A model generated the notes under the pieces. It made no database searches and was not told the origin of the DNA. It saw only the letters and a program-made list of their open reading frames with translations. A stretch of DNA of 64,000 nt, taken from assembly GCF_011398355.1 (NCBI RefSeq), contig NZ_AP021889.1:1116001-1180000 (forward strand), in the 5' to 3' direction. Shown here one piece after another: positions 1,478 through 35,226 of this stretch (the first letter of the stretch is position 1; every line of letters starts with the position of its first letter). A program made the translations under genes and the position numbers. The stretch comes from Thiosulfatimonas sediminis (lineage in GTDB: Bacteria; Pseudomonadota; Gammaproteobacteria; Thiomicrospirales; Thiomicrospiraceae).

Positions 1478-1560
1478 AATAAGTGCCCATTTAAAATACG
1501 TGGGCACCTAATTATTCACAGATAAGTGTGGTTGGTAAGAGGTGTTTACCGGATAGTTAC

Positions 1561-1687: not shown

Positions 1688-1702
1688 GTAAGCGTCCGGC
1701 AA

Positions 1703-3277: not shown

Positions 3278-3294
3278 GCCGCGGATTATAAAGA

Positions 3295-3624: not shown

Positions 3625-3971
3625 GACTGCACCGACTTGACAAAGGCGCTTAATTTGGCCAATTCTGTGACAGGCCAGTGCACAGCAATCTTGCCTTGAG
3701 GTGCAGGCAGTTCGACCAAGAGCGTTTGAGGCGATGACGGCGGCAGATCGTTCAAGACCAGCGGAATAAATGCCGCTTGGGAAGCATGGCGTTTTTTAAG
3801 CTGACGCTTCCAGTTCTGTATTTGATTGGCATTGATGCCGTAGTCTCGAGCCACTTGTGCAATCGAGGTGTTAGGGTCCTCGCAAGCGGTCAAAACCTGC
3901 TGATTGAATTCCCGTGAGTAGCGACGGCGAATCTTTTTGACTGTGGGAAGCGTTGATAGTGTGTCTGTCAT
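3621..3971 (-). CDS. tnpA: IS66 accessory protein TnpA, type A copy A2
   Basis: A 116-aa helix-turn-helix Orf1 protein starting at MTDTLS. It carries one substitution relative to A1 (SREFNQQV for SREFKQQV) at the edge of the HTH. The stop overlaps the tnpB start. Confidence 0.88.
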   Translation of the reverse strand: MTDTLSTLPTVKKIRRRYSREFNQQVLTACEDPNTSIAQVARDYGINANQIQNWKRQLKKRHASQAAFIPLVLNDLPPSSPQTLLVELPAPQGKIAVHWPVTELAKLSAFVKSVQS

Positions 3972-4054
3972 AATAAGTGCCCATTTAAAATACGTGGGCA
4001 CCTAATTATTCACAGATAAGTGTGGTTGGTAAGAGGTGTTTACCGGACGGTTAC

Positions 4055-4112
4055 GGCAGATAAGCGTGTTCAGTTCCATTAACTGATCCAATGTCATGTC
4101 TTCAATGCGCAT
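4055..4112 (-). pseudogene. Type B fourth ORF, truncated start
   Basis: The first 19 codons (MRIEDMTLDQLMELN...) of the small gene that is complete at 14034-14303 in the other type B copy. The start overlaps the end of tnpC. The rest was lost where the end of A2 now lies at 4054. Confidence 0.85.
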
Positions 4113-5769: not shown

Positions 5770-5798
5770 GGGCTGTATTATACCAAATACTAACGTAC

Positions 5799-6143
5799 TT
5801 ATACCCTTTTGAAACGCTTGAATTGGCGGTATTTTTGCACTTCAATACCATCGATGAGCAGCTGCAGATCAGCAAGCGTCAGCGCATGATGGGACGCATT
5901 GGATTTGGGCACTGGGAACTGTCCCTGTTGCAGTTGTTTGGCCCACAGGCAGTAGCCGGTTCCGGTAAAATACAGCATCTTCATCTGGGTTTTACGGCGA
6001 TTGATGAAGACAAAGTAGTGACCGCTGAGCGGATCTTGTTTGAGTTGGTTGCGAACCAGGGCGCTGAGGCCTTGGAAGGATTTTCGCATGTCGGTGGGCT
6101 GGGTGCACAGCCAGATACGCGCTTGACTATCGAGCCCGATCAT
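5799..6143 (-). CDS. tnpB: IS66 accessory protein TnpB, type B copy B1
   Basis: A 114-aa Orf2-like protein: IWLCTQPTDMRKSFQGLSAL near the N-terminus, then FINRRKTQMKMLYF and WAKQLQQGQF. Its ATG overlaps the TGA of the interrupted tnpA (6140-6142). Confidence 0.9.
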   Translation of the reverse strand: MIGLDSQARIWLCTQPTDMRKSFQGLSALVRNQLKQDPLSGHYFVFINRRKTQMKMLYFTGTGYCLWAKQLQQGQFPVPKSNASHHALTLADLQLLIDGIEVQKYRQFKRFKRV

Positions 6144-6231
6144 CCGTTCTGGCTCAGTCGCAGTTCAACACCGTTGCCCAGACTTAGAACAATGTTCCAG
6201 CCAGAGTCGCTCGCGCGTGAGTCATTTATCA
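6140..6231 (-). pseudogene. tnpA: Type B tnpA, 3' part (split by type C insertion)
   Basis: The last 28 codons of type B tnpA (ending VELRLSQNG, stop 6140-6142). It includes the target duplication ATTTATCA at 6224-6231. Removing the type C element and one copy of the duplication joins this in frame to 8539-8751, giving a 98-aa Orf1 protein. Confidence 0.85.
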
Positions 6232-6314
6232 GTAAGCGCCAATTTACCCACATCTAAAATTCCTGAATAAAGTTCGTTATTCTTCTATGTGTTTTCAATC
6301 ACAGGAGAATTTTG

Positions 6315-6614
6315 ATGAGCAAACACGAACTTTGGGTGCAGCGGATTGCCGATTGGCAAGCCAGTGGTCTTTCACAACGGGCATTTTGCCAGCAGCAAGG
6401 CTTGGCGATTTCAACCTTTTATACTTGGCGACGTAGGCTTCGAAACTTAAGCCAAGCACCCATCAAAGAATCTTCTGCCTTTTTGCCGATGGTGATTCAC
6501 GATCAGCCTGAACCGTGCTCAACCAGCATTGCAGTCAAGGCAAAAGGATTGGTATTTGAGTGTTCCGTGGTGCAATTAGCGCAATTAATCACCGAGTTGA
6601 ATCGTCATGCTTAG
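6315..6614 (+). CDS. tnpA: IS66 accessory protein TnpA, type C copy C1
   Basis: A 99-aa Orf1 protein with the pattern LWVQRIADWQASGLSQRAFC...FYTWRRRLR, a short helix-turn-helix of the IS66 TnpA kind. The ATG at 6315 lies 7 bp after GGAG. Its end overlaps tnpB by 8 bp. Confidence 0.9.
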   Translation: MSKHELWVQRIADWQASGLSQRAFCQQQGLAISTFYTWRRRLRNLSQAPIKESSAFLPMVIHDQPEPCSTSIAVKAKGLVFECSVVQLAQLITELNRHA

Positions 6615-6963
6615 ACCAAGCTTTGATGCACACGTCTTTGTCTATCGTGATCCGGTGGATATGCGTAAATCCATTAATGGACTGGCGGCCATTGTGGAAG
6701 CTGAGCTGGGACATTCTCCCATGAATGGTGCACTGTTTGTGTTTTGCAACCGTTCTCGCGATAAGGTCAAACTCCTCTACTGGGAGCGCAATGGCTTTGT
6801 GCTCTGGTACAAGCGATTAGAGAAACACAAGTTTAAATGGCTCAATCCTCAGGAAACAAAGGATTCGATTGAAGTTACCGGCAAACAGCTCAATCAGTTA
6901 CTCGATGGCTTGGATATTTTTCAACAGCCGCATCAATCACTTTTCTATGACAACGTGGGCTAA
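6607..6963 (+). CDS. tnpB: IS66 accessory protein TnpB, type C copy C1
   Basis: A 118-aa Orf2-like protein with VYRDPVDMRKSINGLAAIVE, FVFCNRSRDKVKLLYW and FVLWYKRLEKHKFKW, all typical of IS66 Orf2. It starts inside the end of tnpA; tnpC starts 20 bp after its stop. Confidence 0.92.
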   Translation: MLRPSFDAHVFVYRDPVDMRKSINGLAAIVEAELGHSPMNGALFVFCNRSRDKVKLLYWERNGFVLWYKRLEKHKFKWLNPQETKDSIEVTGKQLNQLLDGLDIFQQPHQSLFYDNVG

Positions 6964-6983
6964 TTCGGGTATCTTACCCGCCC

Positions 6984-8507
6984 ATGAAGAAACGCCTCTC
7001 TGCTAAAGATTTACCCGATGATATCGACGCCTTAAAAGCCTTGGTTTTGCAAAAAGACCAGCAAATCGACACCTTATCAACGGAAGTCAGTCGTCTGTCT
7101 GAATTAGTCATGTTCTTTAAGGTTCGTCAATTCTATAAAAGCAGTGAAAAACACCCCGATCAAGCGGAACTGTTTAATGAACCCGAAGTCGAGGACAATT
7201 CGTCTTTGAGAGCGTCGAGTGATGAATCCTCGAGTGACTCACCCAAAGCAAAATCCAACGCCGGTCGTAAACCCTTACCAAAGAATCTTCCCCGTCAACG
7301 CGTTGAACATTGCTTACCGGCCGGTGAGAAATGTGACTGTGGCTCAGAGTTCAAAGAGATCGGTGAAGAAGTCTCTGAGCAATTAGAAATTATTCCTGCC
7401 AAAATCATTGTTCGTCAGTTAGTGCGTAAAAAATACGCCTGCCCATGTTGTGAGGGTTCGCTTAAGTTAGCGTCCATGCCCAAACAGCCGATTCCCAAAA
7501 GCATCGCCGGTCCGGGATTAATGGCCTACATTGCCACCGCGAAATACCAAGATGGCGTACCGCTGTATCGTCAAGAAAAAGCCTTTGAACGTTTAGAGGT
7601 CGAACTGTCACGCCAAACGATGGCCAACTGGATGATTAAGGGGGCCCAACTCTGCCAGCCTCTGTACAACCTGATGCAAGATTCTCTGCTGGACAGTGGC
7701 TATGTGCACATGGATGAAACGCGTGTGCAAGTGCTCAATGAGGTGGGGAAAACCGCAGAGAGCCACAGTTACATGTGGGTACGCAAGACGGGTGATCAAA
7801 AACACCCAGTGGTGTTATTCGACTATTCACCGGATCGCACCGCACAAACCGCCCTGAATTTACTGCCTGAGTTTAAAGGCTTCCTACAAACCGATGACTA
7901 TGCGGGTTATCACAAAATCGGTGCAATGGAACAGATTACCCATCTAGGTTGTTGGGCCCATGCCCGACGTAAGTTTATGGATGCCAAAAAAGTACTGCCT
8001 AAGAATAAAACCGGCAAGGCGGACATGGCACTCAATCTCATTCAAAAGCTCTATCAAATTGAACAACACATCAAAGACCAACCACCAAATAAACGACTCA
8101 AGGTCCGGCAAACCGAAAGCCTGCGGGTTTTAGAACAGCTCAAAACGTGGTTGGATAAAAGCCTCAACAGCACCGTGCCCAAAAGCAAACTCGGTGAGGC
8201 CTTGAGCTATCTGGCAAAAAACTGGGAAAAACTTCAAATCTTCACCACGAATGGGCGATTGAATATCGACAACAACCCAGTTGAGAATGCCATTCGTCCC
8301 TTCGCGATCGGACGCAAGAACTGGCTCTTTAGCCAATCGGTTAAAGGCGCCAAAGCCAGTGCGATGCTGTACAGCTTGATTGAAACCGCCAAAGCCAACG
8401 GACTCGAACCCCAAGCTTATCTCACTCATCTTTTCCGAGACCTGCCCAACTGCGACACCCTCGAGCAGTTCGAAGCACTTCTGCCGTGGAATCACACCGC
8501 ATCCTAG
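6984..8507 (+). CDS. tnpC: IS66 transposase TnpC, type C copy C1
   Basis: A 507-aa transposase with an N-terminal coiled coil (about residues 8-45), zinc-binding cysteines (CDCGS and CPCC), then catalytic Asp in HMDETRVQV, Asp in LQTDDYAGY and Glu in NNPVENAIRP. GRKNWLF follows. It is intact and of normal length. It differs from its mirror copy at two neighbouring residues near the C-terminus (RDLPNC here, RNLANC there). Confidence 0.93.
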   Translation: MKKRLSAKDLPDDIDALKALVLQKDQQIDTLSTEVSRLSELVMFFKVRQFYKSSEKHPDQAELFNEPEVEDNSSLRASSDESSSDSPKAKSNAGRKPLPKNLPRQRVEHCLPAGEKCDCGSEFKEIGEEVSEQLEIIPAKIIVRQLVRKKYACPCCEGSLKLASMPKQPIPKSIAGPGLMAYIATAKYQDGVPLYRQEKAFERLEVELSRQTMANWMIKGAQLCQPLYNLMQDSLLDSGYVHMDETRVQVLNEVGKTAESHSYMWVRKTGDQKHPVVLFDYSPDRTAQTALNLLPEFKGFLQTDDYAGYHKIGAMEQITHLGCWAHARRKFMDAKKVLPKNKTGKADMALNLIQKLYQIEQHIKDQPPNKRLKVRQTESLRVLEQLKTWLDKSLNSTVPKSKLGEALSYLAKNWEKLQIFTTNGRLNIDNNPVENAIRPFAIGRKNWLFSQSVKGAKASAMLYSLIETAKANGLEPQAYLTHLFRDLPNCDTLEQFEALLPWNHTAS

Positions 8508-8538
8508 AAAACTAGGGTGTGGGTAAATTGTCGCTTAC

Positions 8539-8751
8539 ATTTATCACTGAGGACAGATCCAGAAAACTGGATTCACTGGATGCTGAATCGTCGCTCTCGT
8601 CTGGTTTTTCAGATAAGCGTTTGCGCCAGTTGCAAAAACTGGCATAGCCAACTTTTTGTTGCTGGCAAAACTGTCGGGCTGACAAGCCACTGTGATGTTG
8701 CTGATCAACCAGGACTTGCCATTGGTCGGCAGTGCGGCGCTTTGTTGTCAT
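8539..8751 (-). pseudogene. tnpA: Type B tnpA, 5' part (split by type C insertion)
   Basis: The first 71 codons of type B tnpA from the ATG at 8751: a DQWQVLVDQQHHSGLSARQ and FCNWRKRL helix-turn-helix typical of IS66 Orf1. The type C element enters after the codons for SSVI. The frame continues into type C terminal sequence and stops at 8512, giving a 79-residue hybrid tail of no evident function. Confidence 0.85.
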
Positions 8752-8847
8752 GAATGTAACCTCCTGTTGGTGAGTGAGAGGTTACTGTAGCGGGAAATTC
8801 ATTGCCGTGGCAGGACGTCCTGGAATGAACGCTTACGATTATAAAGA

Positions 8848-9177
8848 CTAACTCAGTGATAAGGAAGTCTCGAGCCGTTGCCAAGGCAAGCCCTGCACCA
8901 GTGCCAGACATTGTTCAGGGGAGAGTGTCACGGATTCGCCCCGCCACAGTTCAGCCCAATGGAATTTACCTTGATTCAAACGTCGAGCACAGAGCCAGAT
9001 GCCTAAGCCATCGTGGACCAATAACTTCATTCGATTGCCGCGCTTATTGGCAAACAGATACGCATGATGGGGTTTGGCCTCACCAAACACGGCAATGACA
9101 CGAGCTAATGCGGTATCGGGTCCTGCACGCATATCCATGGGTTCAGTCGCCAGCCAATAATGATCAATGCGAATCAT
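8848..9177 (-). CDS. tnpB: IS66 accessory protein TnpB, type A fragment A3
   Basis: A 109-aa Orf2-like protein, open and complete, with two substitutions relative to the other copies (MKLLVHDG for MKILIHDG). There is no tnpC beside it, so it could act only in trans. Confidence 0.8.
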   Translation of the reverse strand: MIRIDHYWLATEPMDMRAGPDTALARVIAVFGEAKPHHAYLFANKRGNRMKLLVHDGLGIWLCARRLNQGKFHWAELWRGESVTLSPEQCLALVQGLPWQRLETSLSLS

Positions 9178-9524
9178 GACTGCACCGACTTGACAAAGGC
9201 GCTTAATTTGGCCAATTCTGTGACGGGCCAGTGCACAGCAATCTTGCCTTGAGGTGCAGGCAGTTCGACCAAGAGCGTTTGAGGCGATGACGGCGGCAGA
9301 TCGTTCAAGACCAGCGGAATAAATGCCGCTTGGGAGGCATGGCGTTTTTTAAGCTGACGCTTCCAGTTTTGTATTTGATTGGCGTTGATGCCGTAGTCCC
9401 GAGCCACTTGTGCAATCGAGGTGTTAGGGTCCTCGCAAGCGGTCAAAACCTGCTGTTTGAATTCCCGTGAGTAGCGACGGCGAATCTTTTTGACTGTGGG
9501 AAGCGTTGATAGTGTGTCTGTTAT
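9174..9524 (-). pseudogene. tnpA: Type A tnpA, fragment A3, start codon lost (ATG to ATA)
   Basis: The reading frame is intact, but the codon that is ATG (MTDTLS) in the other copies is ATA at 9522-9524. Translation would need the upstream ATG at 9554 inside the terminal region, which has no clear ribosome-binding site. The copy is therefore probably silent or poorly expressed. Confidence 0.7.
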
Positions 9525-9638
9525 AATAAGTGCCCATTTAAAATACGTGGGCACCTAATTATTCACAGATAAGTATGGTTGGTAAGAGGTGTTTACCAGA
9601 TAGTTACGTAAGCGACAATTTACCCACACCCTAGTTTT

Positions 9639-11162
9639 CTAGGATGCGGTGTGATTCCACGGCAGAAGTGCTTCGAACTGCTCGAGGGTGTCGCAGTTGG
9701 CGAGGTTTCGGAAAAGATGAGTGAGATAAGCTTGGGGTTCGAGTCCGTTGGCTTTGGCGGTTTCAATCAAGCTGTACAGCATCGCACTGGCTTTGGCGCC
9801 TTTAACCGATTGGCTAAAGAGCCAGTTCTTGCGTCCGATCGCGAAGGGACGAATGGCATTCTCAACCGGGTTGTTGTCGATATTCAATCGCCCATTCGTG
9901 GTGAAGATTTGAAGCTTTTCCCAGTTTTTTGCCAGATAGCTCAAGGCCTCACCGAGTTTGCTTTTGGGCACGGTGCTGTTGAGGCTTTTATCCAACCACG
10001 TTTTGAGCTGTTCTAAAACCCGCAGGCTTTCGGTTTGCCGGACCTTGAGTCGTTTATTTGGTGGTTGGTCTTTGATGTGTTGTTCAATTTGATAGAGCTT
10101 TTGAATGAGATTGAGTGCCATGTCCGCCTTGCCGGTTTTATTCTTAGGCAGTACTTTTTTGGCATCCATAAACTTACGTCGGGCATGGGCCCAACAACCT
10201 AGATGGGTAATCTGTTCCATTGCACCGATTTTGTGATAACCCGCATAGTCATCGGTTTGTAGGAAGCCTTTAAACTCAGGCAGTAAATTCAGGGCGGTTT
10301 GTGCGGTGCGATCCGGTGAATAGTCGAATAACACCACTGGGTGTTTTTGATCACCCGTCTTGCGTACCCACATGTAACTGTGGCTCTCTGCGGTTTTCCC
10401 CACCTCATTGAGCACTTGCACACGCGTTTCATCCATGTGCACATAGCCACTGTCCAGCAGAGAATCTTGCATCAGGTTGTACAGAGGCTGGCAGAGTTGG
10501 GCCCCCTTAATCATCCAGTTGGCCATCGTTTGGCGTGACAGTTCGACCTCTAAACGTTCAAAGGCTTTTTCTTGACGATACAGCGGTACGCCATCTTGGT
10601 ATTTCGCGGTGGCAATGTAGGCCATTAATCCCGGACCGGCGATGCTTTTGGGAATCGGCTGTTTGGGCATGGACGCTAACTTAAGCGAACCCTCACAACA
10701 TGGGCAGGCGTATTTTTTACGCACTAACTGACGAACAATGATTTTGGCAGGAATAATTTCTAATTGCTCAGAGACTTCTTCACCGATCTCTTTGAACTCT
10801 GAGCCACAGTCACATTTCTCACCGGCCGGTAAGCAATGTTCAACGCGTTGACGGGGAAGATTCTTTGGTAAGGGTTTACGACCGGCGTTGGATTTTGCTT
10901 TGGGTGAGTCACTCGAGGATTCATCACTCGACGCTCTCAAAGACGAATTGTCCTCGACTTCGGGTTCATTAAACAGTTCCGCTTGATCGGGGTGTTTTTC
11001 ACTGCTTTTATAGAATTGACGAACCTTAAAGAACATGACTAATTCAGACAGACGACTGACTTCCGTTGATAAGGTGTCGATTTGCTGGTCTTTTTGCAAA
11101 ACCAAGGCTTTTAAGGCGTCGATATCATCGGGTAAATCTTTAGCAGAGAGGCGTTTCTTCAT
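9639..11162 (-). CDS. tnpC: IS66 transposase TnpC, type C copy C2
   Basis: A 507-aa transposase with the same domain order and catalytic residues as the copy at 6984. It differs at two residues near the C-terminus (RNLANC). Intact. Confidence 0.93.
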   Translation of the reverse strand: MKKRLSAKDLPDDIDALKALVLQKDQQIDTLSTEVSRLSELVMFFKVRQFYKSSEKHPDQAELFNEPEVEDNSSLRASSDESSSDSPKAKSNAGRKPLPKNLPRQRVEHCLPAGEKCDCGSEFKEIGEEVSEQLEIIPAKIIVRQLVRKKYACPCCEGSLKLASMPKQPIPKSIAGPGLMAYIATAKYQDGVPLYRQEKAFERLEVELSRQTMANWMIKGAQLCQPLYNLMQDSLLDSGYVHMDETRVQVLNEVGKTAESHSYMWVRKTGDQKHPVVLFDYSPDRTAQTALNLLPEFKGFLQTDDYAGYHKIGAMEQITHLGCWAHARRKFMDAKKVLPKNKTGKADMALNLIQKLYQIEQHIKDQPPNKRLKVRQTESLRVLEQLKTWLDKSLNSTVPKSKLGEALSYLAKNWEKLQIFTTNGRLNIDNNPVENAIRPFAIGRKNWLFSQSVKGAKASAMLYSLIETAKANGLEPQAYLTHLFRNLANCDTLEQFEALLPWNHTAS

Positions 11163-11182
11163 GGGCGGGTAAGATACCCGAA

Positions 11183-11539
11183 TTAGCCCACGTTGTCATA
11201 GAAAAGTGATTGATGCGGCTGTTGAAAAATATCCAAGCCATCGAGTAACTGATTGAGCTGTTTGCCGGTAACTTCAATCGAATCCTTTGTTTCCTGAGGA
11301 TTGAGCCATTTAAACTTGTGTTTCTCTAATCGCTTGTACCAGAGCACAAAGCCATTGCGCTCCCAGTAGAGGAGTTTGACCTTATCGCGAGAACGGTTGC
11401 AAAACACAAACAGTGCACCATTCATGGGAGAATGTCCCAGCTCAGCTTCCACAATGGCCGCCAGTCCATTAATGGATTTACGCATATCCACCGGATCACG
11501 ATAGACAAAGACGTGTGCATCAAAGCTTGGTCTAAGCAT
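11183..11539 (-). CDS. tnpB: IS66 accessory protein TnpB, type C copy C2
   Basis: A 118-aa Orf2-like protein, identical in translation to the copy at 6607-6963. Confidence 0.92.
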   Translation of the reverse strand: MLRPSFDAHVFVYRDPVDMRKSINGLAAIVEAELGHSPMNGALFVFCNRSRDKVKLLYWERNGFVLWYKRLEKHKFKWLNPQETKDSIEVTGKQLNQLLDGLDIFQQPHQSLFYDNVG

Positions 11540-11831
11540 GACGATTCAACTCGGTGATTAATTGCGCTAATTGCACCACGGAACACTCAAATACCAATCC
11601 TTTTGCCTTGACTGCAATGCTGGTTGAGCACGGTTCAGGCTGATCGTGAATCACCATCGGCAAAAAGGCAGAAGATTCTTTGATGGGTGCTTGGCTTAAG
11701 TTTCGAAGCCTACGTCGCCAAGTATAAAAGGTTGAAATCGCCAAGCCTTGCTGCTGGCAAAATGCCCGTTGTGAAAGACCACTGGCTTGCCAATCGGCAA
11801 TCCGCTGCACCCAAAGTTCGTGTTTGCTCAT
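11532..11831 (-). CDS. tnpA: IS66 accessory protein TnpA, type C copy C2
   Basis: A 99-aa Orf1 helix-turn-helix protein, identical in translation to the copy at 6315-6614, with the same GGAG-to-ATG spacing. Confidence 0.9.
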   Translation of the reverse strand: MSKHELWVQRIADWQASGLSQRAFCQQQGLAISTFYTWRRRLRNLSQAPIKESSAFLPMVIHDQPEPCSTSIAVKAKGLVFECSVVQLAQLITELNRHA

Positions 11832-11914
11832 CAAAATTCTCCTGTGATTGAAAACACATAGAAGAATAACGAACTTTATTCAGGAATTTTAGATGTGGGT
11901 AAATTGGCGCTTAC

Positions 11915-12006
11915 TGATAAATGACTCACGCGCGAGCGACTCTGGCTGGAACATTGTTCTAAGTCTGGGCAACGGTGTTGAACTGCGACTGAGCCAGAAC
12001 GGATGA
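11915..12006 (+). pseudogene. tnpA: Type B tnpA, 3' remnant in B2
   Basis: Mirror of 6140-6231: the last codons of type B tnpA up to the TGA at 12004-12006, which overlaps the tnpB ATG. The 5' part is missing because C2 abuts a type A end on its other side. Confidence 0.82.
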
Positions 12007-12347
12007 TCGGGCTCGATAGTCAAGCGCGTATCTGGCTGTGCACCCAGCCCACCGACATGCGAAAATCCTTCCAAGGCCTCAGCGCCCTGGTTCGCAACCA
12101 ACTCAAACAAGATCCGCTCAGCGGTCACTACTTTGTCTTCATCAATCGCCGTAAAACCCAGATGAAGATGCTGTATTTTACCGGAACCGGCTACTGCCTG
12201 TGGGCCAAACAACTGCAACAGGGACAGTTCCCAGTGCCCAAATCCAATGCGTCCCATCATGCGCTGACGCTTGCTGATCTGCAGCTGCTCATCGATGGTA
12301 TTGAAGTGCAAAAATACCGCCAATTCAAGCGTTTCAAAAGGGTATAA
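12003..12347 (+). CDS. tnpB: IS66 accessory protein TnpB, type B copy B2
   Basis: A 114-aa Orf2-like protein, identical in translation to the copy at 5799-6143. Confidence 0.9.
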   Translation: MIGLDSQARIWLCTQPTDMRKSFQGLSALVRNQLKQDPLSGHYFVFINRRKTQMKMLYFTGTGYCLWAKQLQQGQFPVPKSNASHHALTLADLQLLIDGIEVQKYRQFKRFKRV

Positions 12348-12376
12348 GTACGTTAGTATTTGGTATAATACAGCCC

Positions 12377-14044
12377 ATGATTTCAATGGGCTCAACATCA
12401 CCTGCCACACCACTATGCGCCTCGTCTGACGCCACAGACCTGGCTCAGCAAAATGCGCTGCTACGTGAACAGTTAGCCTTGCAGGCAGAAACCATCGCTA
12501 AGCTCGAACACCAGCTCGACTGGTTCAAAAAACAACTGTTCGGTCCCAAGTCAGAAAAGCAGGTGTTTGACCTGCCCCAGCAGGCCAGTCTGTTCCAGAG
12601 TGAACAGGCAATGCGACCGGACACATCAGTGGATGAACCCAAACGCACCATTCAGGCCTATCAGCGCGGCACAGGCAAAAAACAGCGTGACGACGATTGT
12701 CTCAACGACACCGGTCTGCGCTTCAGCGCCGATGTGCCCGTGGAAGTCATCGAACAGCAACCGCCAGAACTCAGTGGTCCCGATGCGGACCTGTACGATA
12801 TCATTGCCATCAAAACCACTTATCGTCTGGCGCAGCGCGCCTCAAGCTATGTGGTACTCAAGTTTGAGCGCCCGGTGATCCGTCGCAAGGGCTGCAACCC
12901 AAAATTGATCACAACGCCCGCACCGTTGAACGTGCTCGACAACTCTCTGGCTGACGTCAGTCTGCTCGCCGGAGTGTTGGTCGACAAATTCCAATTCCAT
13001 CTGCCCCTGTATCGACAGCATCAACGGCTTATGCAGGCTGGCATTACCGTCAGTCGCAGCACCCTGACCAATCTGGTCAAGCGGTCCATTGATCTACTCA
13101 AACCGATTGTCGATGCCCAGACAGACAATGTGTTGCGCTCGCGAGTACTGGCCATGGATGAGACCCCAATCAAAGCCGGTCATCAGGGCCGGACAGGCTC
13201 ACAAAAGGGTAAAATGAAATCCGGCTGGTTCTGGCCGCTGTATGGTGATGCTGACGAAGTGGTGTTTACCTATGCCAGCTCCCGAGGGCGGTTGCACATA
13301 GAAACCGTTCTCAAGGACCAATTTAATGGCACCCTGCTCAGTGATGGGTATTCGGCCTATGCGCGCTACGTTGAGACACAACAGGGTGTTACGCATGCTC
13401 AATGCTGGGTGCATGCACGCCGCTACTTTATTGACGCACAAAAAGCGCACCCTGAACGAGCGACCGATGCCTTGCAGCAGATCGCACAGATCTACCGGAA
13501 TGAAGAAGTCATTCAGACACAGGGCCTGACAGACGAGAAAAAACGTCAGTACCGACTGGATCATTCAAAGCCAGTGGTCGATCACTTCTTCACATGGTGT
13601 GAGGAGCAACTCGATAACCCACAACTGGTTCCCAGTGATCCGCTGACAAAAGCGCTGAACTATGTGCTGGGTCGTACAGCGAGTCTGAAAGTGTTTTTAA
13701 AAGATCCGCAAGTGCAACCGGACACCAATCACCTGGAACGGGCCTTGCGGCCCATTCCAATGGGTAGGAAAAACTGGATGTTCTGCTGGACAGAACTGGG
13801 GGCCGAGCACCTGGGTCTGATTCAAAGCCTGATCAGCACCTGCAAGTTACATGAGGTTAACCCCTACACTTACCTGGTGGATGTATTGCAACGCATTGGC
13901 CGACACCCGGCCAAAGACGTTGTGGATTTAACACCGCGCGTCTGGAAAACTCGGTTCGCTGATGCCCCTCTGCGTGCACTGATTGATCCACGCCACCCGT
14001 ACCGTCAAAACACAGCGACAGAGGTTTACGCTCATGCGCATTGA
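12377..14044 (+). CDS. tnpC: IS66 transposase TnpC, type B copy B2
   Basis: A 555-aa transposase with the same layout as the copy at 4102-5769, differing at two residues. All three catalytic residues are present. A stretch just upstream (GGTATAATACAGCCC before the ATG) resembles a -10 box, but transcription from the tnpA side is more usual in this family. Confidence 0.92.
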   Translation: MISMGSTSPATPLCASSDATDLAQQNALLREQLALQAETIAKLEHQLDWFKKQLFGPKSEKQVFDLPQQASLFQSEQAMRPDTSVDEPKRTIQAYQRGTGKKQRDDDCLNDTGLRFSADVPVEVIEQQPPELSGPDADLYDIIAIKTTYRLAQRASSYVVLKFERPVIRRKGCNPKLITTPAPLNVLDNSLADVSLLAGVLVDKFQFHLPLYRQHQRLMQAGITVSRSTLTNLVKRSIDLLKPIVDAQTDNVLRSRVLAMDETPIKAGHQGRTGSQKGKMKSGWFWPLYGDADEVVFTYASSRGRLHIETVLKDQFNGTLLSDGYSAYARYVETQQGVTHAQCWVHARRYFIDAQKAHPERATDALQQIAQIYRNEEVIQTQGLTDEKKRQYRLDHSKPVVDHFFTWCEEQLDNPQLVPSDPLTKALNYVLGRTASLKVFLKDPQVQPDTNHLERALRPIPMGRKNWMFCWTELGAEHLGLIQSLISTCKLHEVNPYTYLVDVLQRIGRHPAKDVVDLTPRVWKTRFADAPLRALIDPRHPYRQNTATEVYAHAH

Positions 14045-14303
14045 AGACATGACATTGGATCAGTTAATGGAACTGAACACGCTTATCTGCCAGCGCATTG
14101 ACCAGTTGCAGGAGCGTGAAACCATGGAAGCGCTGATGCAATTGCGATTGGGGATGAAAGTGACGTTTGAGGGTCGCTATGGACAAGTGTTTGGCATCGT
14201 CACAAAAATCAATCGAAAGACGGTGATCGTACTGGATGAAGATGGTGCCAAACAATACAAGGTTGCACCGGTATTATTACGCCCACTTCATGAGGCAAGC
14301 TGA
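14034..14303 (+). CDS. Small fourth gene of the type B IS66 element (SH3/KOW-like?)
   Basis: An 89-aa protein overlapping the end of tnpC by 11 bp and inside the element's terminal repeat, so it moves with the element. An N-terminal amphipathic helix (LDQLMELNTLICQRIDQLQ) is followed by a beta-rich part with glycine turns (LGMKVTFEGRYGQVFGIV, then NRKTVIVLDEDGAKQYKVAP). That pattern recalls small SH3/KOW-type barrels. Function unknown. Canonical IS66 elements carry three genes, and extra genes at this position are passengers or accessory factors. The truncated copy at 4055-4112 shows the overlap is fixed in the element. Confidence 0.75.
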   Translation: MRIEDMTLDQLMELNTLICQRIDQLQERETMEALMQLRLGMKVTFEGRYGQVFGIVTKINRKTVIVLDEDGAKQYKVAPVLLRPLHEAS

Positions 14304-14332
14304 TTCAACCACGTCTTGGAATGAACGCTTAC

Positions 14333-14901
14333 GTTGCATGGCGCATGCCCGTCGCAAGTTGGTGGAGCTGCATGAAAGTGGCAAAAGCACGATTGCCATT
14401 CAAGCCATCGACATGATGGGGCAACTCTACGCGATTGAAAAAGACCTTCAATCCTTGCCACCAGAGGAACGACAGACCATTCGACAGCAAAAATCCAAAC
14501 CGATTATGGACCTGCTGCTCAAATGGTTGCAGGTCCATCGAGAAAAAGTGCCCAAAGGTGGGGCAACGGAAAAAGCGATTCACTATAGCCTGAAACGTTG
14601 GGATGCCTTAAGCCGATACCTTGGAGATGGCCGCCTGCCCATCGATAATAACTGGGTGGAAAATCAAATCCGACCTTGGGCGTTAGGTCGCAAGAACTGG
14701 CTGTTTGCCGGCAGTCTGCGCAGTGGTCAGCGTGCCGCGAATATTATGAGCTTGATTCAATCGGCCAAGAATAACGGCCTGGATCCTTACGCCTATCTCA
14801 AAGACGTGCTTGAACGCTTGCCCACCCATAAAGCCAGTCAAATCGACCAACTCCTGCCGCACAATTGGCAACCTAGCAACCGGTGATTGCCGGACGCTTA
14901 C
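14333..14901 (+). mobile_element. Type A IS66 fragment A4 (tnpC end and terminal repeat)
   Basis: The last third of a type A element, from inside tnpC to its terminal repeat ending at 14901 (inwards GTAAGCGTCCGGCAATCACC). It is cut at 14332 by the end of B2. To the right it runs into an older, decayed IS66 tnpC. Confidence 0.88.
14335..14886 (+). pseudogene. tnpC: Type A tnpC, C-terminal fragment
   Basis: The last 183 codons of type A TnpC, from CMAHARRK to WQPSNR, including the catalytic Glu in NNWVENQIRP and GRKNWLF. The two catalytic Asp residues are missing. An artificial longer frame can be read from within the type B fourth gene, but it uses the wrong frame of that gene. Confidence 0.88.
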
Positions 14902-15715: not shown

Positions 15716-16222
15716 TTAACGATTTGCGAAATATTTATCATAATGGAAAATATAGTCGGCGGTGGTAAGTGGCAAATGGCAGCTACGGCAACCGTCATAT
15801 CCGGTGTCTAGTTTATTGCCTTTGCCATCAAAAGCGCTGTAGGTCCAGTCGCCAGTTTGTAATCCAGCAGGTGCATGTTTACCATTACCGGCATTTTTAT
15901 ACATCACAAAGACTTTTTGTAGTTCGCCTTTGGTCATAGAGCCAGCTGTTCCGGAAGCACCGTAGATTTCCATTACCGTGACTGTGCCGTTAGCAAACGG
16001 TTGACCTTTTTGCGCTTTCGCACCGATATCATTAATGTAAATATCACGAATGTGTCCAGATTTCTTTTCGATACCGCTTAAAAACGTATCCCATTGCTTA
16101 TAGTCTGGCATTGACATAGTGCCATCTTTTGCACCATTGGCTTGAACGGCGCCACTGAATGCGATGCCTGCGAACACGGCAGATAGAGCTAGGGCTTTAA
16201 ATTTAAAAATTGACTGTTTCAT
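15716..16222 (-). CDS. Cytochrome P460 family protein, secreted c-type haem protein
   Basis: A 168-aa protein. A cleavable signal peptide (about residues 1-28, ending AVQA) directs it to the periplasm. A single haem c motif CRSCH (Cys145, Cys148, His149) lies near the C-terminus, where P460-family proteins carry theirs, and the DWTYSAFDGKG stretch fits the family. Known P460 proteins oxidise hydroxylamine or bind NO with a lysine-crosslinked haem. Many sulfur oxidisers carry homologues of unknown substrate, and I cannot point to the crosslinking lysine with confidence. The ATG follows GGAGAG by 8-9 bp. A strong terminator follows; the next upstream gene on this strand is the anti-sigma factor, which has its own terminator, so transcription is probably separate. 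Confidence 0.82.
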   Translation of the reverse strand: MKQSIFKFKALALSAVFAGIAFSGAVQANGAKDGTMSMPDYKQWDTFLSGIEKKSGHIRDIYINDIGAKAQKGQPFANGTVTVMEIYGASGTAGSMTKGELQKVFVMYKNAGNGKHAPAGLQTGDWTYSAFDGKGNKLDTGYDGCRSCHLPLTTADYIFHYDKYFANR

Positions 16223-16384: not shown

Positions 16385-17146
16385 CTAAATTTTGCTGATC
16401 TCGCCAAGGTAAACCGGTGACGAGGTTGGTTGCCCAGTTGGTGAACCGCCTGCCGGTTCGACACTGACTGCAAATTTTTGCACTTTGCCGAGTAAGGCGA
16501 TTTGTTGTTCGTTTAACGGTAAGTTGTATTCGCCGACTTCTGGCATTAAGCCAAGGGATTCGGGTTGATTAAGGCCATCAGCAATAATCCAGAGCTCATA
16601 GGTGCGTCGACTGTCCAATGGCTCCGCTTGTAAAGTTTGTACATGTAGACGTTTATTTTGCGCTTCATAGCGCATTAGCCAACCAGCTTGTTGTTGTGTA
16701 TTAATCAGGACGGTCAGTAATTGTGGCGTCTCATTTTGCACAAATTGCTGTGACTGTTTACTGGTGGTCGGGGCTAAGTTAACGCTAGCAAAAATCGCTA
16801 AACCGATGGTCGAAATGCTCGCAGCAGTCGCCCATGTTTTTAGCCAACGGTTGGATGGGGTAGGGGCTTTAACCGAGCGGAAGTTTTTTCTTAGCTGCGT
16901 AATATTTGATGGCGAGTCTTGTAAGATACGCTGTGAAATATTGACCCACACTTTTAGCGGCGGCTGTTGTTCCGGTGCCGTTAAACTTAAGCGATTCCAA
17001 AGCCCTTCGGTTTTTTGTACTAAGGTGCGTAAGCTTGCATCGCGACTCATCCGCTTTTCAAAATTTTTACGTGCGCGGCTATTCATTAGCCCCATGATAT
17101 AATCATTGGCCAGGCGTTGTTGTAAGTTTTGATCGTCTAATTTCAT
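16385..17146 (-). CDS. Anti-sigma factor, RskA family (membrane-anchored)
   Basis: A 253-aa protein. The N-terminal cytoplasmic part has a zinc-free anti-sigma domain pattern (YIMGLMNSRARKNFEKRM). One membrane helix lies at about residues 103-123 (WATAASISTIGLAIFASV). The periplasmic C-terminal part matches the anti-sigma-K factor RskA domain (RTYELWIIADGLNQPESLG, VEPAGGSPTGQPTSSPVYLG). The start at 17146 overlaps the sigma stop (ATGA), so the two are translationally coupled. The likely role is to hold the ECF sigma factor inactive until an envelope signal releases it. In related systems this pair controls redox or metal-stress genes; the target here is not visible. Confidence 0.87.
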   Translation of the reverse strand: MKLDDQNLQQRLANDYIMGLMNSRARKNFEKRMSRDASLRTLVQKTEGLWNRLSLTAPEQQPPLKVWVNISQRILQDSPSNITQLRKNFRSVKAPTPSNRWLKTWATAASISTIGLAIFASVNLAPTTSKQSQQFVQNETPQLLTVLINTQQQAGWLMRYEAQNKRLHVQTLQAEPLDSRRTYELWIIADGLNQPESLGLMPEVGEYNLPLNEQQIALLGKVQKFAVSVEPAGGSPTGQPTSSPVYLGEISKI

Positions 17147-17703
17147 TGCTGCATACACTCCCTGACACTTTCCATGCCACGCCGGATCCAGGATTTTATG
17201 GTGCCAAGCGGTCGTTTCAATCTGTCTACCATCTCGCTATGTGAATAGCCATAGTAATAGGACATTAGCACCGAGTTGCGTTGGTTAATATCAAGCCCTT
17301 GCAAGCACTCTTGTAGTAACTGCAACTGCTGGTCTTCATCGGCATTATGGTCATATAACAATTGTTCATCGCCTTGCTGCAAAATATCTTGTTCGGTTGC
17401 CATGGCATCACTGCGATTTTGCTGTGACTTTTCACGACGGATAATGTCCAGTGCGCGGTAGCGAACAATGGTCGCCATCCATGCAAAAGCACTGCCTTTT
17501 TCTGGATCGTATTCGGCTGCTTTGTACCATATATGCACAAAGGCCTCTTGTAAGGCTTCATCGGCCAAGTCACTGTTTTGCAGTAAGCGTCTCGCTGCGC
17601 CGTAAAGTCTTGGCGATGCGCTTCGGTAGAGCTTTGCAAATGCGGTCTGTTTTTGCTTGCCGCATTCAATCAGTAGAGTTTGTATTTCGATTTCGTTAAG
17701 CAT
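17143..17703 (-). CDS. ECF-type RNA polymerase sigma factor (SigK-like)
   Basis: A 186-aa sigma-70 family protein. Region 2 runs from about residue 20 (FAKLYRSASPRLYGAARRLL to AFAWMATIVRYRALDIIRR). Region 4 is at the C-terminus (LQGLDINQRNSVLMSYYYGY, HSEMVDRLKRPLGTIKSWIR). The start at 17703 has AGAGG 5 bp upstream. A further ATG at 17787 lacks such a site and would add 28 unconserved residues. The coupled anti-sigma gene follows directly. Autoregulation is usual for such pairs; no promoter could be defined by eye. Confidence 0.9.
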   Translation of the reverse strand: MLNEIEIQTLLIECGKQKQTAFAKLYRSASPRLYGAARRLLQNSDLADEALQEAFVHIWYKAAEYDPEKGSAFAWMATIVRYRALDIIRREKSQQNRSDAMATEQDILQQGDEQLLYDHNADEDQQLQLLQECLQGLDINQRNSVLMSYYYGYSHSEMVDRLKRPLGTIKSWIRRGMESVRECMQQ

Positions 17704-18020
17704 TGCGCCTCTTGCATTTGCATCGCGCCGATTTGGCGTGTAAGTCGTTTTGACGGCGTGGTTCTGTCGGTTGAGTGAATCAACCATAAACTTAACAAAA
17801 AACGCACCGTTATCGTTTATCCGAATTGACTAAAACATCGGATACTTTTAAGGACTCTAAGCTTAACATTATAAATACGTTTGAGAAGTAGATTTGGATG
17901 TCATGACGATTACGTATTATTTAGAGGATGGCGTAGCTGTAAATGAAAAGGCGCGGGAATGAAAAGTTGCCGCGCCTAAATTCGTTGGATAATGGCTTAA
18001 ATTAAGCCAGCTACATCAAC
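17704..18020. other. Intergenic region with sigma-operon promoter and KCG-gene terminator
   Basis: Between the ECF sigma start and the KCG-repeat gene, both on the minus strand. A terminator hairpin is at 17946-17980. The remaining AT-rich part should hold the sigma-operon promoter; no convincing box was identified. Confidence 0.45.
17946..17980 (-). terminator. Probable terminator after the KCG-repeat gene
   Basis: GC-only 7-bp stem GGCGCGG / CCGCGCC (17950-17956 and 17970-17976) with a 13-nt loop, followed on the minus strand by TTTTCATTT. Confidence 0.75.
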
Positions 18021-18305
18021 TTATTTTGCAGAACCACATTTCTTCTCAGCACCACACTTGGCTTCAGTACCGCATTTTTTTTCAGCGCCGCATTTCGCTT
18101 CAGTACCACATTTTTTCTCAGCACCGCACTTGGCTTCAGTACCACATTTCTTTTCGCCACCACATTTATTGCCATGTCCGTCAGCAACCAAAAGCGTTTG
18201 TGAACCGTTTAGCATTTGGAATGGGTTCGCATCTGCCATTGCTGTACCAGAAAGCATTAGTGCGCTGGTTGCTAGGGCAATAAATAAAGATTTTAATTTC
18301 AACAT
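18021..18305 (-). CDS. Secreted KCG-repeat peptide (eight Cys at 6-residue spacing), possible copper-binding RiPP-like precursor
   Basis: A 94-aa protein. The N-terminal signal peptide (about residues 1-25, AMADA cleavage region) is followed by a 20-residue spacer. From residue 46 to the end it is a strict repeat with Cys at 48, 54, 60, 66, 72, 78, 84 and 90, alternating EKKCGT and EAKCGA units. At DNA level this is a 36-bp tandem repeat. The composition resembles the EGKCG-type repeats of HvfA-like and bufferin precursors, in which Cys is modified by DUF692 (MNIO) enzymes and binds copper. No DUF692 or DUF2063 gene is in this window, so modification is conjecture; an unmodified metallothionein-like metal buffer is equally possible. 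The ATG has GGAG 7 bp upstream. It lies two genes from the ECF sigma factor on the same strand. Confidence 0.75.
   Translation of the reverse strand: MLKLKSLFIALATSALMLSGTAMADANPFQMLNGSQTLLVADGHGNKCGGEKKCGTEAKCGAEKKCGTEAKCGAEKKCGTEAKCGAEKKCGSAK
18030..18170. repeat. 36-bp tandem repeat inside the KCG gene
   Basis: About 3.5 imperfect 36-bp units, each coding for twelve residues (EKKCGTEAKCGA). Synonymous differences between units show it is not a very recent duplication. Confidence 0.85.
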
Positions 18306-18394
18306 AATTTTCTCCAGAAATTTTGAGGATAAGCCGATAAGTTCGGTTATTCCAAGGCAATACGTTAGCGCAAATTATTTTGGATGCAAAAAAA

Positions 18395-22844: not shown

Positions 22845-22927
22845 GTAACCGTCCGGTAAACACCTCTTACCAACCACACTTATCTGTGAATAATTAGGTG
22901 CCCACGTATTTTAAATGGGCACTTATT

Positions 22928-23278
22928 ATGACAGACACACTATCAACGCTTCCCACAGTCAAAAAGATTCGCCGTCGCTACTCACGGGAATTCAAACAGC
23001 AGGTTTTGACCGCTTGCGAGGACCCTAACACCTCGATTGCACAAGTGGCTCGAGACTACGGCATCAATGCCAATCAAATACAGAACTGGAAGCGTCAGCT
23101 TAAAAAACGCCATGCTTCCCAAGCGGCATTTATTCCGCTGGTCTTGAACGATCTGCCGCCGTCATCGCCTCAAACGCTCTTGGTCGAACTGCCTGCACCT
23201 CAAGGCAAGATTGCTGTGCACTGGCCTGTCACAGAATTGGCCAAATTAAGCGCCTTTGTCAAGTCGGTGCAGTCATGA
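22928..23278 (+). CDS. tnpA: IS66 accessory protein TnpA, type A copy A5
   Basis: A 116-aa helix-turn-helix Orf1 protein from MTDTLS. ATGA overlap with tnpB. Confidence 0.9.
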   Translation: MTDTLSTLPTVKKIRRRYSREFKQQVLTACEDPNTSIAQVARDYGINANQIQNWKRQLKKRHASQAAFIPLVLNDLPPSSPQTLLVELPAPQGKIAVHWPVTELAKLSAFVKSVQS

Positions 23279-23604
23279 TTCGCATTGATCATTATTGGCT
23301 GGCGACTGAACCCATGGATATGCGTGCAGGACCCGATACCGCATTAGCTCGTGTCATTGCCGTGTTTGGTGAGGCCAAGCCCCATCATGCGTATCTGTTT
23401 GCCAATAAGCGTGGCAATCGAATGAAGATACTGATCCACGATGGCTTAGGCATCTGGCTGTGTGCTCGACGTTTGAATCAAGGTAAATTCCATTGGGCTG
23501 AGCTGTGGCGCGGCGATTCCGTGACACTCTCACCTGAACAATGTCTGGCTCTGGTGCAAGGCTTGCCTTGGCAACGGCTCGAGACTTCCTTATCACTGAG
23601 TTAG
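23275..23604 (+). CDS. tnpB: IS66 accessory protein TnpB, type A copy A5
   Basis: A 109-aa Orf2-like protein, identical in translation to the A1 copy (801-1130). Confidence 0.92.
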   Translation: MIRIDHYWLATEPMDMRAGPDTALARVIAVFGEAKPHHAYLFANKRGNRMKILIHDGLGIWLCARRLNQGKFHWAELWRGDSVTLSPEQCLALVQGLPWQRLETSLSLS

Positions 23605-23621
23605 TCTTTATAATCCGCGGC

Positions 23622-25196
23622 ATGAAAACAATGCCAAACCTCCATCAACTCTCTGCCGACCAGTTACGAACACTGGCGGCGCAGTTATTCATTCAGGTCG
23701 AGACTCAAGAAGCTCGTCTTCAAGAAAAAGACCAACGCATTGCGGCCAATGCCAAAGAGATTCAGCACAAGACCCTAAAAATCGATCAACTCACCTATGA
23801 GTTAGCCTATCTCAGACGTTTAAAATTCTCACACAAAAGTGAACAGATCAGCGCCTTACAGATGACACTGTTGGATGAAGTGACCGATGCCGACATTGCG
23901 GCGATTGAATCGGAACTGGATGCGCTTAGAGACAAAACCGACACAGCGCAACCAAAGAAAAAACCTAAGCGTCAGCCGCTACCCGAAAACCTACCTCGTC
24001 TTGACATCCGTCATGATCCCGAATCCACCACCTGTTCATGTGGCTGTCAATTACGCCATATTGGTGAAGACGTCAGTGAGAAGCTGGATTATCTGCCCGG
24101 GACGTTTCAAGTGGAACGTCATATTCGCTCCAAATGGGCGTGCGATGCCTGTGAAACTCTGATTCAAAAACCGATGCCCCCACAAATCATTGACAAAGGT
24201 CTGCCAACCTCTGGGTTACTCGCACATCTGCTCATCGCCAAATACGCTGATCACTTACCGCTGTATCGTCAAGCTCAGATCTTTGAACGGGCCGGTGTTA
24301 AATTACCCAGTTCCACTTTAGCCGAATGGGTCGGCGTCTGTGGTGTTCAACTTGAACCGGTGGCTCAAGCACTCAAAGACTTTTTGCTGACGCAACCGGT
24401 CTTGCACGCCGATGAAACCCCAGTGCCCATGCTCAAGCCGGGGAATAAGAAAACCCATAAAGCCTATCTGTGGGCCTACACCAATCCAGCCAATGCACAA
24501 CATAAGGCGGTGTATTACCACTTTAGTGAAGGACGAAACGGCAAGTTTGCACGAGAGGTGCTACAGGATTGGAAAGGATTGTTGGTGTGTGATGACTATC
24601 CTGGGTACAAAGCCAGTTTTAAACAAGGCGTGACCGAAGTCGGTTGCATGGCGCATGCCCGTCGTAAGTTCGTGGAACTGCATGAAAGCGGCAAAAGCAC
24701 GATTGCCATTCAAGCCATTGAACTAATGGGGCAACTTTACGCGATTGAAAAAGAGATTCAACCCTTAGCCCCAGAGGAACGACAGACCATTCGGCAGCAA
24801 AAATCCAAACCGATTATGGACTTGCTGCTCAAATGGCTGCAGGTCCATCGAGAAAAAGTGCCCAAAGGTGGGGCAACGGAAAAAGTGATTCACTATAGCC
24901 TGAAACGTTGGGATGCCTTAAGCCGATACCTCGGAGATGGCCGCCTGCCCATCGATAATAACTGGGTGGAAAATCAAATCCGACCTTGGGCGTTAGGTCG
25001 CAAGAATTGGCTGTTTGCCGGCAGTCTGCGCAGTGGTCAACGTGCGGCGAATATTATGAGCTTGATTCAATCGGCCAAGAATAACGGCCTGGATCCTTAC
25101 GCCTATCTCAAAGACGTGCTTGAACGCTTGCCCACCCATAAAGCCAGTCAAATCGACCAACTCCTACCGCACAATTGGCAACCTAGCAACCGGTGA
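23622..25196 (+). CDS. tnpC: IS66 transposase TnpC, type A copy A5
   Basis: A 524-aa transposase, intact. It is nearly identical to the copy at 1703-3277 except for a short block in the coiled coil (NAKEIQHKTLK here, NTKALQQKELK there) and scattered single changes. The clustered difference suggests recombination with a third variant. Confidence 0.93.
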   Translation: MKTMPNLHQLSADQLRTLAAQLFIQVETQEARLQEKDQRIAANAKEIQHKTLKIDQLTYELAYLRRLKFSHKSEQISALQMTLLDEVTDADIAAIESELDALRDKTDTAQPKKKPKRQPLPENLPRLDIRHDPESTTCSCGCQLRHIGEDVSEKLDYLPGTFQVERHIRSKWACDACETLIQKPMPPQIIDKGLPTSGLLAHLLIAKYADHLPLYRQAQIFERAGVKLPSSTLAEWVGVCGVQLEPVAQALKDFLLTQPVLHADETPVPMLKPGNKKTHKAYLWAYTNPANAQHKAVYYHFSEGRNGKFAREVLQDWKGLLVCDDYPGYKASFKQGVTEVGCMAHARRKFVELHESGKSTIAIQAIELMGQLYAIEKEIQPLAPEERQTIRQQKSKPIMDLLLKWLQVHREKVPKGGATEKVIHYSLKRWDALSRYLGDGRLPIDNNWVENQIRPWALGRKNWLFAGSLRSGQRAANIMSLIQSAKNNGLDPYAYLKDVLERLPTHKASQIDQLLPHNWQPSNR

Positions 25197-34716: not shown

Positions 34717-35226
34717 TTAGTGTCCCATCCCGCTGCCGCATTTACCATTACCGCATTTGTGGCCGCCTTGCATCGGTTGCATTGCCATAAATGATTTAAC
34801 CGGCATCGTGACCATTTTGCGACTACCATCGACAAATTCGAGATTGACTTCTACGGTTTGGCCGACTTTGATCGGGTTGAATGGGCCGATGAGCATAATG
34901 TGCAGTCCACCCGGTTTGAGTTCAACGGTTGTGTTCGCGGGAATGGTGATTGCATCGATTTTACGCATTCGCATTACGCCGTCATCATTGGTATGGGTGT
35001 GTAATTCGATGGTTTTAGCAACATCAGAATAGGCTTGCACCAATTTAATTTCTTGTGCCGAGTCATTGGTTAACGTCATAAAACTGGCGGAAGCCGGTGC
35101 TGTCGGCGGGACTTCACGCGCAAAAGGGTTTTCGACCTTAATATGATCAGCTTGTGCTGCCCAAGCGTGCAGACTGGTTAATGAGCAGATCAGTCCAAGG
35201 GTCAGGGTGCTAAGCGTTTTTTTCAT
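34717..35226 (-). CDS. Copper chaperone PCu(A)C family with KCG tail
   Basis: A 169-aa periplasmic protein. A signal peptide (about residues 1-23) is followed by a PCuAC domain with its metal ligands: HTHTNDDGVMRM and, some 20 residues on, PGGLHIML. Such proteins deliver copper to the CuA site of cytochrome oxidase together with Sco. The C-terminus adds MQGGHKCGNGKCGSGMGH, a His/Cys-rich tail that resembles the KCG repeat of the peptide at 18021. It lies 23 bp after the Sco gene, an operon. Confidence 0.92.
   Translation of the reverse strand: MKKTLSTLTLGLICSLTSLHAWAAQADHIKVENPFAREVPPTAPASASFMTLTNDSAQEIKLVQAYSDVAKTIELHTHTNDDGVMRMRKIDAITIPANTTVELKPGGLHIMLIGPFNPIKVGQTVEVNLEFVDGSRKMVTMPVKSFMAMQPMQGGHKCGNGKCGSGMGH

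Follow-up and report, generated by a model that had tools for sequence, protein, structure and literature searches.

A KCG-repeat peptide of the HvfA/oxazolin precursor lineage that may act without an MNIO in a redox-linked ECF sigma factor regulon

The window analysed here, a stretch of 64,000 nucleotides from the genome of Thiosulfatimonas sediminis, carries on its minus strand (18021..18305) a gene for a Sec-exported peptide of 94 residues and eight cysteines, P0001, with orthologues at loci L052, L053, L122 and L124. The peptide consists of a Sec-type signal (residues 1-24, minus strand, 18234..18305), an NPF-containing linker and eight KCG units. A preliminary description of this DNA had reported eight Cys at six-residue spacing, all within KCG, behind an export signal; the reading frame is as described, and by eye we could recognise a Sec signal, MLKLKSLFIALATSALMLSGTAMA, with probable cleavage before DANPF (AMA-DANPF). 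The repeat region (18024..18167, minus strand) is made of tandem 36-bp units, each encoding 12 residues with one Cys per six, and it is because of this unit that every Cys-Cys interval equals six residues. Copies of the unit differ by synonymous changes. The runner-up among the window's reading frames of at least 60 codons has three equally spaced Cys in a row, and simulating the window 30 times with a first-order Markov model gave runs of at most five. A functional constraint on strict six-residue spacing is ruled out by the orthologues, which show spacings of 5, 6 or 9 residues while always keeping KCG; the number of Cys in P0001 and its orthologues ranges from 5 to 9. By type, the P0001 sites are four EKKCG, three EAKCG and one GNKCG (EGKCG, 0/8), with Glu at position -3 in seven of the eight. 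P0001 matched no Pfam or NCBIfam family at E <= 1, and AlphaFold2, run on a 10-row alignment of the peptide, returned no secondary structure (mean pLDDT 44.8). Many near-identical operons that by eye resemble those of IS66-type transposases flank the peptide region (801-14886 and 22898-25196).

Downstream of the peptide gene, and on the same strand, is the ECF sigma/anti-sigma pair that the preliminary description had placed there: a SigK-like ECF sigma factor (17143..17787, with a likely start at 17703 giving 186 residues) and an anti-sigma factor with an RskA_C domain (16385..17158; PF10099, 69.6 bits). A cytochrome P460 gene on this strand (15716..16222; PF16694), whose product has an export signal by eye, is a possible member of the regulon. 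An ECF-type promoter, TGCATCCA-N16-CGTAT, stands before the peptide gene (18360..18388, minus strand) and is the window's only exact match to this element, with 0.01 expected. Another, ACATCCA-N15-CGTAT, precedes the ECF operon (17875..17901, minus strand), suggesting probable autoregulation, and a promoter-like site with one mismatch, TGCATCTA-N15-CGTAT, precedes the cytochrome P460 gene (16295..16322, minus strand). Reduced to CATCCA-N15-CGTAT, the element occurs in the window exactly once, at the ECF gene, and with one mismatch once, at cytochrome P460; 0.85 one-mismatch matches are expected in the window, and two are not unusual (18 of 100 shuffles). A sigma-70 promoter scan of the window was uninformative (9 found vs 8.9 expected). 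Following the peptide gene is a terminator-like hairpin with an 8-bp stem and a UUUU tract (17949..17977, minus strand; -15.3 kcal/mol, z -2.97), whose 13-base loop exceeds the limits of the window hairpin scan, so that it is unlisted there. Because of this hairpin, the peptide gene is probably transcribed on its own, and the ECF operon from the second promoter.

The element is not confined to this locus. As TGCATCCA-N15/16-CGTWW it lies upstream of the peptide gene at 5/5 orthologous loci, and the shorter CATCCA form recurs unchanged ahead of the ECF gene in T. marina 6S2-11 (G013). Our comparison set comprised 32 genomes of the genus, taken as Thiomicrorhabdus; the five with the peptide at the PFK locus hold 15 element matches and the other 27 genomes hold 27, the reversed control giving 8 matches across all 32. 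Four more matches fall in the host genome: one before a gene for a Ferritin_2 protein, two overlapping opposite-strand genes, and a fourth pointing to FAD amine oxidase-DUF1365 genes about 280 bases off, the host regulon outside the window being drawn from two of these sites. A match in G011 precedes an SDR gene that leads a same-strand run ending with a peroxiredoxin, and in G014 one match falls inside a gene while another precedes a gene for a gluconate dehydrogenase subunit-3 protein; further matches lie on G013 C33 and G011 C1.

The closest PDB relative of the sigma factor is SigK (4nqw, E 3.6e-25), and two of its Cys align with Cys of SigK (ECLQGLD/ECLKALT and RECM/RNCL). The Cys pair of SigK has a redox role. 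PMC7509140, which numbers this pair C133/C183, puts its conservation at 94% in ECF18 and 56% in ECF19. The host module shares with SigK-RskA systems (ECF18/ECF19) its best solved relative with the two aligned Cys, the RskA_C domain, a promoter element before the ECF operon that suggests autoregulation, and a further element site pointing to amine oxidase-DUF1365 genes. In M. tuberculosis, sigK reportedly adjoins amine-oxidase and DUF1365 genes, and its -35 box is said to be CCATCC. The host module differs in that an HvfA-like peptide belongs to it, as cytochrome P460 probably does too. A second ECF/RskA-like pair is present elsewhere in the host genome (C1:23213-24510; L228 1714-3011), with an anti-sigma match at E 2.0e-13; a reading of this stretch showed no exact copy of the promoter element.

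We used profile searches of the complete host genome (one contig, 2.72 Mb, 100% complete) to look for modifying enzymes, and found neither PF05114 (MNIO, DUF692) nor PF09836 (DUF2063); among 14 named genomes the controls were positive in two and one, respectively. The absence of DUF692 enzymes claimed earlier for this DNA thus extends to the whole genome. Within the genus, an MNIO is found in 18 of the 32 genomes and missing from 14, and DUF2063 is found in the same 18. Sec-type KCG peptides occur in 7/14 genomes without an MNIO vs 1/18 with one (Fisher p 0.010, which ignores shared ancestry), in a search that took matches to E 0.01 and could miss weaker relatives. The seven are G000, G011, G013, G014, G020, G026 (Thiomicrorhabdus sp. 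6S3-12) and G031, and in the six species other than the host neither an MNIO nor a DUF2063 gene was found. The remaining peptides counted in MNIO-bearing genomes of the genus have a twin-Arg signal in 17/17 cases. Anti-sigma matches at E <= 5.2e-42 occur in 7/32 genomes, exactly the seven named, with weaker matches in G008 and G024. In five species the peptide gene at the PFK locus stands ahead of the ECF gene and its RskA-like partner. The ECF pair is also at this locus in G020 and G026, with neither a KCG gene nor the promoter element.

The sole MNIO-bearing genome with a Sec-type KCG peptide is G002, which is 83% complete. There the peptide gene neighbours one for a hydantoinase on contig C62 and the MNIO gene is on contig C157, and modification in trans is possible in this genome because both are encoded, on separate contigs. 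Mutual exclusion of Sec-type KCG peptides and MNIO is ruled out by this case, which lowers our confidence in the best explanation and in the wider proposal that closes this account, and raises it for modification in trans. On C62 (L069 1141-1719) no MNIO separates the KCG gene from the adjoining hydantoinase gene; the KCG gene is broken by a run of N, the peptide stretch containing 347 N. Several peptides were seen in other settings. Twin-Arg KCG peptides with QGKCG/RGQCG repeats persist in the MNIO-less close relatives G026 and G020 (L056 9178-9777; L057 8677-9436), where they adjoin a fragment of an HvfX-type DoxX gene. A Sulfurimonas MAG (L112 1393-1683) also encodes a Sec-type KCG peptide; an MNIO was not found in this MAG, which may be incomplete. 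In G008 C39 (L062 3264-8210) an EGKCG precursor lies away from the MNIO locus, beside a large gene that by eye resembles an RND efflux pump.

Where, then, does P0001 belong? Its orthologue in T. marina (L052), 80% identical to it, scores 22.9 bits with the HvfA-family model NF050137 against a cut-off of 19.5, and the host paralogue described below scores 57.2 bits; both fall below the 95-bit cut-off of NF050188. In profile comparison, the part of P0001 before the repeats matched MNIO-associated Sec precursors of other taxa with 94.6% probability, against 0.5% for the reversed control and at most 9.3% for five unrelated signal peptides. It matched the twin-Arg precursor set at 59.5% and four single Sec precursors at 66.7, 64.3, 26.3 and 5.5%, the comparison having used the NPF-bearing peptides (20/24 Sec, 16/17 twin-Arg). 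The kinship with HvfA-type precursors proposed at the outset is thus supported by an orthologue above the family cut-off and by the match across signal and NPF linker; assignment of P0001 to the HvfA/oxazolin (Buf_EGKCG) precursor lineage is accordingly supported at the level of sequence. The DUF2282 domain of Buf1 bufferins was not found in P0001 by Pfam search at E <= 1.

P0001 shares with the HvfA/oxazolin, Buf_EGKCG peptides (captophorins, Lys-Cys group) its export, an NPF linker after the signal and repeated KCG, and the host paralogue adjoins an HvfX gene as well; it differs in lacking the EGKCG unit, and its genome in lacking an MNIO or DUF2063 match. In HvfA/Buf_EGKCG oxazolin precursors the Cys are converted to 5-thiooxazole and copper is bound. 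With bacterial metallothioneins and periplasmic copper buffers P0001 has in common that it is a small Cys-rich peptide likely to act by free thiols. Metallothioneins of bacteria usually carry CXC or CXXC, whereas P0001 and its orthologues are exported and carry KCG at 5-9 residue spacing, and P0001 has no Pfam family. Copper binding by the lineage is known for its modified form (PMC12452194, PMC13097082), which is the topic of PMC13097082 and PMC13419390. Buf_EGKCG genomes without an MNIO number 67/2583 in Table 3 of PMC12452194, which suggests that precursors apart from MNIO genes are possibly modified by enzymes encoded elsewhere, or unmodified. Our searches of the openly licensed literature turned up neither a conserved MNIO-less group nor any treatment of Thiomicrorhabdus alongside these peptides.

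Behind the host paralogue, which lies at C1:1723458, come genes for an HvfX-family DoxX protein (HvfX model, 231.9 bits vs a cut-off of 80), for an ECF sigma factor and for a short zf-HC2 protein. This minimal hvfA-hvfX-ECF-zf-HC2 operon (L051 9459-11412, from C1:1723458 onward) has no MNIO or DUF2063 gene. The order peptide, HvfX, ECF is the same in G013, G026 and G020, with the small zf-HC2 gene listed in the host genome and G026 only, and the regions upstream of all four hvfA-hvfX-ECF loci have TGTAAGGA in common. The arrangement suggests that HvfX is able to function independently of the MNIO reaction.

Another way to view the absence of the enzymes is through the site that they occupy elsewhere. 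In G025, G027 and G018 the precursor, MNIO and DUF2063 genes adjoin PfpI, with BrkB or hydantoinase on the far side, and PfpI and MNIO also lie within one stretch in G003, G007, G008, G009, G015, G016, G022 and G030. In the host genome the cassette is missing and PfpI overlaps hydantoinase by a few bases; in G031 and G014 its site is occupied by a Sec-type KCG gene alone, and in G005 and G021 cassette and precursor are both gone. An unrooted CtpA/PfpI/BrkB/FecCD tree groups G005 and G021 with the MNIO-bearing G025 and G018 (support 100), and for these two alone is loss of the MNIO well supported. Independent loss in each Sec-KCG lineage is unsupported, the tree being unrooted: the outgroup G033 lacks CtpA, PfpI, BrkB and FecCD beside its MNIO. 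A tree of PfpI alone was mostly poorly resolved.

Selection on the peptide can be followed in two pairs of genomes. Set against its T. marina counterpart, the host gene shows a dN of 0.127 and a dS, near saturation, of 1.96 (dN/dS 0.065), with 8/8 Cys kept; between G031 and G014 dN is 0.063 and dS 1.16 (dN/dS 0.054), with 6/6 Cys kept. The neighbouring sigma factor gives peptide-like dN/dS values in the same pairs (0.145/2.0 and 0.072/1.24). For G026 and G020 dN is 0.016 and dS 0.1, and other pairs are too diverged for dS. With dN/dS at about 0.05-0.07 and all aligned Cys kept, the Cys are therefore maintained without an MNIO: purifying selection acts on Cys and KCG in the MNIO-less relatives.

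We then compared the residues around each CG site in peptides with and without an associated MNIO, as descriptive counts in which sites and genomes are related and hence non-independent. An acid stands at -3 in 121/121 MNIO-associated sites of the genus (17 peptides from 16/18 MNIO-bearing genomes, leaving out G002, G009 and two short MNIO-locus peptides of G018) and in 146/152 sites of other taxa (24/25 MNIO-bearing genomes, leaving out the truncated sequence L116). Pro at -3 to -1 and Lys at -2 each occur in 0/273 of these sites. In the MNIO-less Sec peptides, by comparison, the acid at -3 is present in 30/74 sites, Pro at -3 to -1 in 9/74, Lys at -2 in 11/74 and Lys at -1 in 74/74, with L091, L092 and L109 left out as records identical to G013, G011 and G026. 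An additional 105 MNIO-associated sites gave an acid at -3 in 98, Pro in none and Lys at -2 in none; these came from 19 MNIO-bearing loci, 14 of which yielded a peptide and which cover G009, one genome being a duplicate and one peptide already counted. Counted apart were L112 and L120 (MAGs in which an MNIO was not found; acid at -3 in 2/8 and 3/3) and two twin-Arg MNIO-less peptides (2/23). The Sec-type peptide of the MNIO-bearing G002 has an acid at -3 in 3/6 visible sites, with no Pro and no Lys at -2, and the MNIO-bearing peptides L118 (43%) and L074 (few) are also poor in it. Because these three are low in the acid as well, its relaxation may be a trait of the genus's Sec-type group and not a sign that an MNIO is absent. 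In P0001 itself, four of the eight sites are EKKCG, carrying at -2 the Lys found in none of the 273. FonBC, an EGKCG-type MNIO, is described in PMC13097082 as intolerant to Pro. Drift from EGKCG to EAKCG was ruled out as a sign of MNIO loss: EAKCG is in use among the MNIO-associated Sec precursors of other taxa as well, with EGKCG making up 22% of their sites.

A copper module with a similar tail had been noted along with the peptide, and it lies within the window: a PCu(A)C copper chaperone (34717..35226, minus strand) beside SCO1/SenC ends in a short KCG tail, HKCGNGKCGSGMGH. No promoter element was found at this gene. Such tails on PCu(A)C chaperones have two Cys in the window, three in the MNIO-less G031 and four in the MNIO-less G014 (loci outside the window, L058 9442-9984 and L059 9701-10225).

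Taken together, we somewhat favour the view that P0001 is a free-thiol precursor of the HvfA lineage, working without an MNIO as a periplasmic metal or redox buffer within a redox-linked ECF regulon. The parts of this account are not equally firm. That the peptide works without an MNIO is well supported; that it buffers metal or oxidant we infer. In such a scheme, redox or metal stress at the envelope would release the RskA-like anti-sigma factor, and the freed ECF sigma factor would transcribe the peptide gene and its own, together with genes for a few redox proteins and perhaps cytochrome P460. Sec would export the peptide unmodified, and its periplasmic array of free KCG thiols may bind soft metal ions, with Cu(I) the likeliest, consume oxidants, or do both, the peptide serving as an expendable thiol buffer. 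Of the two classes offered by the preliminary description, the new periplasmic metal buffer is the one we prefer, with the regulon pointing equally to redox or envelope stress; the other, an orphan precursor modified in trans, is unsupported in the host, where searches found neither an MNIO nor a DUF2063 gene, the six further MNIO-less species that encode Sec-type KCG peptides giving the same result.

Modification could still come from an MNIO outside the assembly, for example on a plasmid, or from another enzyme. In favour of this, P0001 keeps the acid at -3 in 7/8 sites, G002 encodes both an MNIO and a Sec-type KCG peptide on separate contigs, and FonBC tolerates several motif variants, modifying AKCGA repeats a single time (PMC13097082). 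With the enzymes not found in any of the seven species, however, and with half of the P0001 sites carrying a Lys at -2 that was seen in 0/273 MNIO-associated sites, we regard this as improbable. A less distant alternative, though one we still hold to be unlikely, is that the peptide serves chiefly as a sacrificial or redox-active thiol, a sink for oxidants, sulfane sulfur or singlet oxygen, and not a metal buffer. The element sites at Ferritin_2 and FAD amine oxidase-DUF1365 genes in the host and at the SDR-to-peroxiredoxin run in G011 point this way, as do the two sigma-factor Cys aligned with SigK, but the modified form of the lineage is known to bind copper (PMC12452194, PMC13097082), and KCG tails occur on PCu(A)C copper chaperones too.

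Two further readings are very improbable. P0001 might be a decaying relic of an hvfABC cassette, as could be imagined from the empty site between PfpI and hydantoinase in the host and from G020 and G026, which have the ECF pair at the PFK locus and no KCG gene; a dN/dS of about 0.05-0.07 with every aligned Cys retained, a conserved promoter element and two intact paralogues in the host genome all argue against decay. We give just as little credence to the exported peptide being a feedback ligand of the RskA-like anti-sigma factor instead of a buffer. The peptide does adjoin the ECF-RskA pair in 5/7 genomes that bear the pair, and in two of these five the peptide gene and the pair have the promoter element in common, but G020 and G026 carry the pair without the peptide there, and the number of Cys repeats varies from 5 to 9.

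Returning to the free-thiol buffer, we propose, with slightly less than even confidence, that KCG is the functional unit, that the acid at -3 is an MNIO mark which relaxes without the enzyme, and that a SigK/RskA-like redox ECF regulon has recruited the free-thiol form as a periplasmic buffer. The 7/8 sites at which P0001 retains that acid are a counterpoint. Thiooxazole peptides made by MNIOs are a large, recently recognised class, and the modification is usually regarded as their point. With KCG peptides strongly conserved in genomes that lack the enzyme, the action of the bare peptide becomes testable within one genus, as does the question of which residues serve the enzyme and which the function. 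If the proposal is true, Thiomicrorhabdus would be a natural experiment separating what is gained by modification from the activity of the bare peptide, and the HvfA family would thereby be linked to a SigK/RskA-like module.
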